Virus record (IMG/VR): IMGVR_UViG_3300034071_001399
Location: 1-31,138 of that record
Reading direction: 5' to 3' (one strand)
Length of the DNA stretch: 31,138 nt
Source: a virus
Shown here in pieces: positions 2,469 through 5,180 of the stretch. The notes under the pieces are model-generated. The model was not told the origin of the DNA and searched no databases. It saw only the letters and a program-made list of their open reading frames with translations. Position 1 is the first letter of the stretch. Each line of letters begins with the position of its first letter. Both the position numbers and the translations under genes were made by a program.

Positions 2469-2752
2469 GACATGCTCCTACGGTTTGCGGCATATGCTCT
2501 GATCCCGTCGAGATACCGGGCGAAGGCGCTGGCTCGGTAGCCGGACTGGATTAGCGCAGTCGTCGCGTCGGCATTCGTGTTGAGCGGCCATGGGCTATCG
2601 GCAATGGTAATCGCCGCGCTTCGCCATTCGGCAGGAAGCCGGGTTGCCTGATCAAGCGCAAAGCTGTCCGGCCCGTGCAGATAGTTGTAAAGCTGGCGCG
2701 TTGCCCGATGCTTGTTAATCTCAAGAGCGCGGTGAGCTATGGTGGAGGCCAT
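2465..2752 (-). CDS. Hypothetical protein, 95 aa
   Basis: Starts MASTIAHRALEINKHRATRQ, with a helical, Ala- and Arg-rich make-up. No recognised domain. ATG at 2752 shares one base with the stop of the repeat protein upstream (TGATG), and its stop overlaps the next ATG (ATGA). Likely expressed only as part of the PL operon. Function unknown. Confidence 0.7.
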   Translation of the reverse strand: MASTIAHRALEINKHRATRQLYNYLHGPDSFALDQATRLPAEWRSAAITIADSPWPLNTNADATTALIQSGYRASAFARYLDGIRAYAANRRSMS

Positions 2753-3672
2753 CAGGAAACCTCCACCAACTTGAGGCCCTTGGCGCGATACCAGGTATCC
2801 GTCTTTTCAATCTTGCCTGTAGCGAAACCAATGCATTCGCCCGCGTCGTTGTATTCAGCTATGGCAACATGCGTGCCGACTGCGCCCTTGACGTGTGTAT
2901 CTTTGCCAGCGCTGGCGATGACGGAATTTTTGCCGCTGGCCTCAATCTGCGTCCAGTCGCCCGATGCGCCGATCTGCGTCCAGTCGCCCGATGCGCCGAT
3001 CTGCGTCCTGTCGCCCGATGCGCCGATCTTCGTCCCGTAGCCCGATGCGCCGATCTTCGTCCCGTAGCCCGATGCGCCGATCTTCGTCCTGTCGCCCGAT
3101 GCGCCGATCTGCGTCCTGTCGCCCGATGCGCCGATCTTCGTCCTGTCGCCCGATGCGCCGATCTGCGTCCTGTCGCCCGATGCGCCGATCTTCGTCCAGT
3201 CGCCCGATGCGCCGATCTTCGTCCAGTCGCCCGATGCGCCGATCTTCGTCCCGTAGCCCGATGCGCCGATCTTCGTCCTGTCGTTTTTGCCTTTTGTCGC
3301 AGCAATAACGGCGGCTACGGCCCGGCGAATAAAATCGGGCAGGGTGATTTTTGCTTTGATGGCAATTGACGCTGCGGCTATCTTCGTCCCGCCTTCTGAG
3401 CGCTGCTGTTGCGTCTTGCCAGAAAGCTCAACATCAGCGTAGCGAGACGGTGACCCGTTATCATCAATGATCGGATAGAAGTCCCAAACGTGGAACGGGT
3501 CAGCGGGATCAACCGCGTGGAACCCACGTTCACAGACCTTGACCGAGCCGTCGATTGCGTAGGTTTTGCCAACCTGGAATTGAAAACCACGGCAGCTTAA
3601 ATCCTTGTCAAAGGCCTTAATCGCGGGGATGGTGGCGGGAGCATCCGCCTGCTTTTTCGATGTGCGGGCCAT
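2752..3672 (-). CDS. DUF7666-type protein with 9-residue tandem repeats
   Basis: 306 residues. Residues about 15-90 (AIKAFDKDLSCRGFQFQVGK, CERGFHAV, HVWDFYPI, YADVELSG) match the N-terminal domain I know as DUF7666 in phage proteins. After a linker rich in Ala, Ile and Lys, residues 133-249 form 13 copies of a nonapeptide with consensus T-K/Q-I-G-A-S-G-D/Y-x; a degenerate copy follows and then a short C-terminal domain ending near KLVEVS. The regular Ile and Gly spacing suggests a beta-solenoid. Function unknown. The start abuts the preceding stop (TAA directly before ATG), with GGAAG upstream. It is the second gene of the PL operon. Confidence 0.8.
   Translation of the reverse strand: MARTSKKQADAPATIPAIKAFDKDLSCRGFQFQVGKTYAIDGSVKVCERGFHAVDPADPFHVWDFYPIIDDNGSPSRYADVELSGKTQQQRSEGGTKIAAASIAIKAKITLPDFIRRAVAAVIAATKGKNDRTKIGASGYGTKIGASGDWTKIGASGDWTKIGASGDRTQIGASGDRTKIGASGDRTQIGASGDRTKIGASGYGTKIGASGYGTKIGASGDRTQIGASGDWTQIGASGDWTQIEASGKNSVIASAGKDTHVKGAVGTHVAIAEYNDAGECIGFATGKIEKTDTWYRAKGLKLVEVS
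2926..3276 (-). repeat. 27-bp tandem repeat, 13 units, coding
   Basis: Thirteen contiguous 27-bp units encode the nonapeptide repeat of the DUF7666-type gene. Units differ mainly at the codons for the Lys/Gln position and the last two residues (Asp-Arg, Asp-Trp, Tyr-Gly, final Lys-Asn). Several units are identical, which points to recent expansion by recombination. Length is a multiple of three, so copy-number change keeps the frame. Confidence 0.95.
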
Positions 3673-4172: not shown

Positions 4173-4202
4173 ATAGTGCTTCACAATCACCATTCCTGTC
4201 AA
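4173..4202 (-). promoter_or_regulatory. PL-type early leftward promoter
   Basis: On the minus strand TTGACA (4202-4197) is followed by an 18-bp spacer and CACTAT (4178-4173). The same two hexamers with the same spacing occur at the rightward promoter before the Cro-like gene. A repressor operator (4176-4190) lies between -35 and -10 and overlaps the -10. Transcription would start near 4166. Confidence 0.7.
4176..4190. promoter_or_regulatory. Operator, OL1-like
   Basis: GTGCTTCACAATCAC, an imperfect 15-bp palindrome differing by one base from the operator at PR (4915-4929). It covers the PL spacer and the edge of its -10. Confidence 0.7.
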
Positions 4203-4210
4203 CAGAAAAA

Positions 4211-4225
4211 GTGCTTGGTAGTCAC
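4211..4225. promoter_or_regulatory. Operator, OL2-like
   Basis: GTGCTTGGTAGTCAC, a third copy of the operator type, more diverged in the right half. It lies 20 bp beyond OL1, upstream of the PL -35, a spacing that would allow cooperative repressor binding. Confidence 0.6.
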
Positions 4226-4261: not shown

Positions 4262-4531
4262 TTAAATCGGCCTAGCCCTGCCGGTAGGGACCAGGCCGTT
4301 CATCGTGCGACAGGAAATCAAAAACGCGGTCCCCCGCGTAGTTTGACTAGCCAGGGCCAGAGCATCCGCACGGCATTCTTCTAGCGTGCCTCGTGGCAGC
4401 GCTCTTAGCCAGTAGCGCCCGTCAGGCGCATTGAACCCAACTTCGGCGGCATGCTTCGCGGGCGGCATGGATAGCCAAAGGGAAAAAGAGAAGATGGCGA
4501 TGAAAACCAGCGCCAAGCGGATTAATATCAT
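4262..4531 (-). CDS. Small secreted or membrane-anchored protein in the rex position
   Basis: 89 residues. The first 22 (MILIRLALVFIAIFSFSLWL...) form a signal peptide or membrane anchor; the rest is a short, presumably periplasmic, domain with two cysteines (EECRAD and LISCRT) that could form a disulfide. The start overlaps the repressor stop as ATGA, so it should be made together with the repressor in lysogens. In lambda this slot holds rexA/rexB. The sequence does not resemble Rex; superinfection exclusion or another lysogenic-conversion role is an inference from position and the signal sequence. No terminator is seen before PL. Confidence 0.7.
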   Translation of the reverse strand: MILIRLALVFIAIFSFSLWLSMPPAKHAAEVGFNAPDGRYWLRALPRGTLEECRADALALASQTTRGTAFLISCRTMNGLVPTGRARPI

Positions 4532-4863
4532 GACGCCTTACTAAGCGTAAATTCGATAAATCGGGTGATTTGTTGGCGCTGGTCGGGCGTTGCCGATTTC
4601 AGAGCCTCGAAAACAAGTCGGGGTGGCGCTGGTTTCATCGGGTTTGTGTTAAGAATGTCAGCGGGCTCGCAACCATAGACCAAAGCCGCCCGCTCAAGAA
4701 AGTCCTGATTGTAGGGCAGGAGCCGCCTTTCAATCTTGCTCAACGTCGTTCGATCAATTTCAAGCCTGTCTGCGACCTCTTCTTGGCTTAGGTCGCGAAA
4801 ATCCCGCCATTCCCGTAGGAATGTGGGGGATCGGCTATGCAAGGGCTTCTTTACAGGGGCCAT
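4528..4863 (-). CDS. HTH (XRE-type) prophage repressor
   Basis: 111 residues with an N-terminal XRE helix-turn-helix at about 20-46 (LSQEEVADRLEIDRTTLSKI) followed by a helical tail. It is divergent from the Cro-like gene across the operator region, the classic CI position. There is no LexA/CI-type self-cleavage domain (no Ala-Gly site with Ser/Lys dyad), so SOS induction by RecA-driven self-cleavage is not expected; another inactivation route or antirepressor would be needed. No ribosome site is seen before ATG 4863, and a putative -10 lies about seven bases away, so the mRNA may be leaderless. Confidence 0.85.
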   Translation of the reverse strand: MAPVKKPLHSRSPTFLREWRDFRDLSQEEVADRLEIDRTTLSKIERRLLPYNQDFLERAALVYGCEPADILNTNPMKPAPPRLVFEALKSATPDQRQQITRFIEFTLSKAS

Positions 4864-4869
4864 TCGTTC

Positions 4870-4897
4870 ATTGTGTCAAAATTTCAAAAAATTTGAA
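4870..4897 (-). promoter_or_regulatory. Putative PRM promoter of the repressor
   Basis: Minus strand TTCAAA (4897-4892), 16-bp spacer, CACAAT (4875-4870), placing the transcript start at or next to ATG 4863. A perfect-armed palindrome (TTCAAA, AAA centre, TTTGAA; 4883-4897) overlaps the -35 and may be a further operator. Both assignments come from pattern only. Confidence 0.45.
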
Positions 4898-4899
4898 CG

Positions 4900-4943
4900 G
4901 CATCGGGCGCACAAGTGCTTGACAATCACCGTGCGCCCGATGC
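4900..4943. repeat. Perfect 13-bp inverted repeat around the PR operator
   Basis: Left arm GCATCGGGCGCAC (4900-4912) and right arm GTGCGCCCGATGC (4931-4943) are exact reverse complements, separated by 18 bp that contain the 15-bp operator. The right arm ends at the first base of the proposed -10. Confidence 0.95.
4915..4929. promoter_or_regulatory. Operator at PR
   Basis: GTGCTTGACAATCAC, a near-perfect palindrome with mismatches only at the fourth pair and the centre. It contains the -35 hexamer TTGACA of PR, so a bound repressor would block polymerase directly. Related copies lie at PL. Confidence 0.75.
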
Positions 4944-4948
4944 ACTAT
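4919..4948 (+). promoter_or_regulatory. PR-type early rightward promoter
   Basis: TTGACA (4919-4924), 18-bp spacer, CACTAT (4943-4948), the same hexamers and spacing as PL. The expected start of transcription falls at about 4955, at the Cro ATG (4956), implying a leaderless first cistron; no ribosome site is visible upstream. Confidence 0.65.
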
Positions 4949-4955
4949 TCCTTCC

Positions 4956-5180
4956 ATGGAACTCGCAAAGTACATGACTGCCCACGGGCTGACTGACAGC
5001 GCCTTCGCCGCGAAGATCGGCGTTGACCGATCCGTTGTCAGCAAATTGCGCGTCCGCACGCTGGGGGCATCGATTGAGACGGCGGTCAAGATCATTGATG
5101 CAACTGGCGGGGCCGTGACTGCCCATGATTTGGTCCCCGTCAATCGCAAGCCCGTTCCCTCACCGGAGAAAGCAGCATGA
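4956..5180 (+). CDS. Cro-like HTH regulator
   Basis: 74 residues. A helix-turn-helix at about 10-32 (LTDSAFAAKIGVDRSVVSKL) is followed by a helix and the DLVPVN end typical of small Cro/YdaS-like regulators. It is the first gene rightward of the switch and diverges from the repressor. It is expected to repress PL, PR and the repressor promoter during lytic growth. There is no Shine-Dalgarno sequence before ATG 4956. Its stop overlaps the next start as ATGA. Confidence 0.85.
   Translation: MELAKYMTAHGLTDSAFAAKIGVDRSVVSKLRVRTLGASIETAVKIIDATGGAVTAHDLVPVNRKPVPSPEKAA

Follow-up and report, generated by a model that had tools for sequence, protein, structure and literature searches.

The two arms of a perfect 13-bp inverted repeat at the PR promoter of this phage very probably represent the outermost members of a tandem of three 15-bp operators for the phage repressor, and probably also for Cro. 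The window, by which we mean the whole stretch of 31,138 nucleotides analysed, carries divergent repressor and cro-like genes with these operators between them. The evidence for this reading lies in sequence, geometry, operator motif, conservation and protein–DNA co-variation. The features of the switch region are listed below; motif ranks are among the ~31,000 window positions.

4173–4178, minus strand: PL −10, CACTAT, from sequence
4176–4190: PL operator over the PL spacer and −10, motif rank 2, pair spacing 35
4197–4202, minus strand: PL −35, TTGACA, from sequence
4211–4225: PL operator upstream of the PL −35, motif rank 12, pair spacing 35
4528–4863, minus strand: repressor, 111 aa, HTH by domain matches, Arg38 opening the recognition helix
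4870–4875, minus strand: proposed PRM −10, CACAAT, from sequence; A-rich AAT there in most relatives listed
4892–4897, minus strand: proposed PRM −35, TTCAAA, abutting the left operator, from sequence only
4898–4912: left operator, CGGCATCGGGCGCAC, containing the left arm (4900–4912); inverted right operator at 13 of 15 positions, motif rank 115
4915–4929: central operator, GTGCTTGACAATCAC, overlapping the PR −35, motif rank 1
4919–4924, plus strand: PR −35, TTGACA, from sequence; TTGAC conserved here among the chosen relatives
4931–4945: right operator, GTGCGCCCGATGCAC, containing the right arm (4931–4943), over the PR spacer and −10; motif rank 7, at the family-wide offset
4943–4948, plus strand: proposed PR −10, CACTAT, 18-bp spacer, from sequence; PL has the same spacer and hexamer
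4956–5180, plus strand: Cro-like HTH protein, 74 aa

A GapR-like gene follows the cro-like gene directly, and the window also encodes P22-like portal and Terminase_3 genes.

The inverted repeat and its three probable operators

The arm GCATCGGGCGCAC at 4900–4912 and its exact complement at 4931–4943 pair at 13 of 13 positions across 18 nt, and the central operator sits between them. This is the arrangement that the original prediction had described, including the reach of the right arm to the proposed −10: it ends at 4943, the first base of CACTAT. The window has no second perfect 13-bp inverted repeat whose loop is 30 nt or shorter. Among simulated windows of matched dinucleotide make-up, 8 of 300 contained such a repeat anywhere (mean 0.037), so that its chance occurrence at the PR position is very unlikely, as had been argued from the 13 matching bases.

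The right operator corresponds to the right arm plus two bases and has the GTG...CAC ends common to the central and PL operators. The left operator is the same sequence inverted, with the two outermost bases altered. Since the left and right operators are near-identical copies facing opposite ways, their arms make up an inverted repeat. Successive operators are separated by 2 bp (left to central) and 1 bp (central to right).

Several observations count against the operator reading. As a whole operator, the left arm scores poorly (2.8 bits), and the outer half of the left site shows no co-variation in relatives; the inner arm letters, GCCCGAT, are unlike those in the central and PL operators; and the 13 of 13 identity, inner letters included, exceeds what operators would need. 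The left operator is weak, with a single good half-site that points toward the centre, but its position is conserved in relatives.

As single-stranded DNA, the inverted-repeat stretch has a strong predicted fold (−19.7 kcal/mol, z −6.6), which would suit a structural role, either as a hairpin or cruciform, as had been suggested earlier, or as a terminator in RNA. In relatives, however, the arms do not preserve complementarity of this length; it averages 8.7 of 13 and reaches at least 11 in only 5 of 48 loci; besides the 13 of the window, one locus has 12 and three have 11. The predicted PR transcript begins downstream of the repeat, the 18-nt loop is itself the operator, and the T-run that a leftward terminator needs directly after the stem is found 8 nt further on. 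We rejected the hairpin, cruciform and terminator readings on the lack of conserved complementarity, and consider a structural role extremely improbable.

Elsewhere in the window, positions 2945–3283, within a DUF7666 gene (2752–3672, minus strand), consist of a 27-bp unit repeated 12.6 times in tandem (95% matches). The unit and the operator arm have the 10-mer CGCCCGATGC in common, a match that we judged to be probably due to chance.

Operator layout among relatives

Relatives were collected by scanning viral and genome contigs with repressor-family profiles, and from phage and plasmid records. The resulting set comprises 73 distinct loci besides the window; in each, CTTGAC precedes an open cro-like frame, and neither arm guided the choice. 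Alignments were required to find them: scans with the repressor or Cro as single-protein queries gave no matches. A tblastn search with Cro against phage records also gave none, and 397 and 385 genomes sampled from one order and one class held few close relatives. The closest repressors found are ~52–53% identical to that of the window, and no near relative with the same arm sequence was seen. Exact scans were also set aside as a source of relatives. Searching viral contigs for the arm adjoining GTG returned 27 loci that lacked both a second arm and any sign of kinship, and searching for the central operator sequence returned 50 loci, with a repressor or Cro relative detectable in none. At one of the latter (L070, positions 260–310), the central operator sequence lies between other inverted arms (ACGCTAA/TTAGCGT) ahead of a different HTH gene, to which BLAST shows no relationship; the layout may have arisen there independently.

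A palindromic operator motif fitted on 33 relatives, with the window excluded from training, reads roughly RTGCATG-N-CATGCAY. In the relatives the left site is likewise weak, with one good half oriented to the centre. The start of the right site mostly follows that of the central position by 15 or 16 bp (16 in the window). Where both outer sites are clear, the distance between their starts is 33 or 34 bp in 35 of 41 loci (33 in the window). Operator pairs at PL, to the left of the repressor gene and outside OR, are spaced 33–35 bp apart in 33 loci, the window with 35 among them, and peak sharply at 34; 28 of these 33 pairs enclose TTGAC on the minus strand, as expected of a PL promoter.

The PL pairs and the outer pair at PR are thus equally spaced around a −35, indicating one layout common to both promoters: operator, −35, operator. 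Since the PL pairs have the same spacing as the arms, the counterparts of the PL operators at PR are the arms, with the central site as an addition. The central operator is present in only part of the family and is missing at PR in 22 of 54 loci. As the sequences read, the arms are the common pair and the nested operator is the addition, which reverses the first reading of the repeat. The original prediction that the PL operators have no such arms is misleading, because the PL pair itself flanks the PL −35. The asymmetry proposed between PR and PL is borne out in the layouts, with three operators at PR versus two at PL; this difference makes an asymmetric response plausible. The window, with spacings of 33 at PR and 35 at PL and with Arg38 and G, belongs to the family as we define it here, namely short repressors with operator pairs around the −35.

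Two groups of loci deviate at PR. Seven (L029, L030, L097, L139, L146, L173 and L180) carry tandem TTGACTGAA direct repeats instead of palindromes, and this subfamily has Thr or Val at repressor residue 38. Five others (L123, L133, L148, L176 and L181) have an extra palindromic operator-like site close to where the repressor gene starts, ~52–54 bp left of the central position; a clear central operator is absent there.

Co-variation of the arms with the recognition helix

Repressor residue 38 lies at the start of recognition helix 3 (model helix 38–45, mean pLDDT 80.6), and in the window the Arg38 that opens this helix is found with G as the outer base. We take residue 38 to be the counterpart of Gln28 in the 434 repressor, by our own alignment; BLASTP of the window repressor against the 434 repressor gave no alignment. 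In the 434 repressor, Gln28 touches the first base of its half-site.

We compared this residue with the operators in 54 loci that have Arg, His or Gln at position 38. The outermost base of the right site is G in 37 of 40 loci with Arg or His and A in all 14 with Gln (Fisher p=2e-10; this and the p-values that follow are overstated because the loci are related). The three exceptions (L120, L219 and L196) look like ambiguous site picking. Co-variation extends to the far half of the right site (p=9e-10) and to the left arm, with G in 32 of 40 Arg/His loci versus A in 12 of 14 Gln loci (p=1e-5). The central site follows the residue as well (far half p=1e-5, near half p=1e-3), and the outer half of the left site does not co-vary with it (p=0.48). 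A repressor tree built without the recognition helix shows at least 8 changes. At the right site, independent pairs agree in direction in 3.7 of the 4 supported cases and are opposed in none, numbers too few for significance on their own.

The corresponding residue of Cro agrees with that of the repressor in all 48 readable loci, which suggests that the two proteins share their sites.

The original prediction had offered the outer pair as the site of a second regulator. Half-sites for a host protein, the GapR-like protein or another phage protein, placed around the operator of the repressor, would account for perfect 13-bp arms whose inner letters differ from those of the central operator, and the GapR-like gene adjoins cro. 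Against this, the arms match the operator motif of the repressor family and lie at family-wide operator positions; PL carries the same pair; and the outer bases of the arms track the recognition residues of repressor and Cro even in loci that lack the central operator. GapR prefers A+T-rich, overtwisted DNA, while the arms are G+C-rich, and GapR as the binder was rejected for lack of support. We regard a different regulator at the arms as very unlikely, and prefer to read them as operators for the repressor and probably for Cro.

Comparing the arms across relatives was a check proposed beforehand, and its outcome is positive. Complementarity between the two arms of one locus averages 8.9–9.0 of 13 (8.9 without the window) versus 7.4 between loci, a difference not reached in any of 20,000 permutations. 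Within one specificity class the values are 8.7 and 7.4 (0 of 10,000 permutations). Better complementarity within a locus is expected if both arms are sites of one protein.

The exactness of the match in the window goes beyond this. Its inner 7 arm letters pair 7 of 7, compared with averages of 4.3 within a locus and 3.3 between loci, and a 13 of 13 match between loci of one class occurs in 1 of 1346 pairings. Because the window was picked for its 13 of 13, a separate function for the exact match is unnecessary; recent operator copying or selection for equal strength are both possible sources. We consider it somewhat less than an even chance that the match records a recent copying of one operator onto the other, by duplication or repair, that has no functional meaning of its own. 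The inner letters speak for such an event, although a close relative with the earlier state was not found. Copying would be a rider on the three-operator explanation and does not conflict with it. An unlikely elaboration is that identity of the outer operators is selected: dimers bound to the arms, 33 bp apart and on about the same face of the DNA, would join in a clamp over the −35 at PR and PL, with the central operator added later so that the responses of PR and PL differ.

The proposed switch and its relation to known phages

From the layout we infer the binding itself, the order in which the sites fill, activation of PRM and both transcript starts. The promoters are assigned by reading the sequence, since a strict promoter scan listed none of PR, PL and PRM. 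With the right and central sites occupied by repressor, the −10, spacer and −35 of PR would be covered and lytic transcription switched off. Bound at the left site, repressor may help RNA polymerase at the repressor gene, whereas Cro on the left site could block RNA polymerase there and close PRM. In lambda, repressor at OR2 activates PRM, and the position of OR2 is comparable to that of the left site. The centre of the left site lies 42–45 bp from the repressor ATG among the 15 loci listed, and ~42 bp in the window.

Transcription from PR is predicted to begin at about the cro ATG (4956), and from the proposed PRM at about that of the repressor. Across much of the family, both divergent transcripts, that of the repressor and that of cro, are predicted to be leaderless (4863–4956 in the window, and in relatives). 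The PL transcript has AGGAG ahead of its ATG (4149).

The switch would work like lambda OR, with the operator count of N15/phiKO2. As in lambda (OR1-OR2-OR3), three tandem palindromic operators lie between divergent repressor and cro genes, both encoding HTH proteins here; by sequence, the right and central sites score well and the left is weak but at a conserved position. Two of them overlap the predicted PR, the central operator its −35 and the right one its spacer and −10. As with lambda OR2, one operator has its centre near −42 of PRM, and a leaderless repressor transcript is predicted here as well. Unlike in lambda, the operators are 15 bp long and 16–17 bp apart from centre to centre, and the outer pair flanks the PR −35. 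In two tested respects the switch does not appear to be lambda-type: no operator over the PRM core was seen between the left site and the repressor ATG in the window, and no self-cleaving C-terminal domain was found in the 111-aa repressor, which matches HTH families only.

In the immB region of N15/phiKO2, the prophage repressor has three operators at OR and two at OL (PMC4997575), the same count as in the window. The phiKO2 Cro binds OR3 only (PMC4997575), while the identical recognition residues of Cro and repressor in our family suggest shared sites. In PY54, the outermost operator base pairs decide Cro specificity and transcripts are leaderless (PMC4488713). Both features recur here; PY54 has a single operator, and its distinction is G versus T, not G versus A. 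Rhizobium phage 16-3, also a temperate alphaproteobacterial phage with OL and OR operators, has oL1, oL2, oR1 and oR2, as far as it is cited in PMC12429752, and thus two OR sites on that account. In the open-access papers found, the layout reported here is not described. Operators could not be found in BiPBO1, a phage of a related host (PMC4729917), or in phiLM21-like prophages of related hosts (PMC12429752).

From a single odd inverted repeat, a general layout emerges that can be tested across a large group of short phage repressors, many of which are found in alphaproteobacteria. PR and PL would each have two operators, spaced by ~34 bp and flanking the −35, and at PR a third may lie on the −35 itself. 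The recognition rule common to repressor and Cro, in which Arg or His at residue 38 goes with G and Gln with A, predicts which phages should share immunity.
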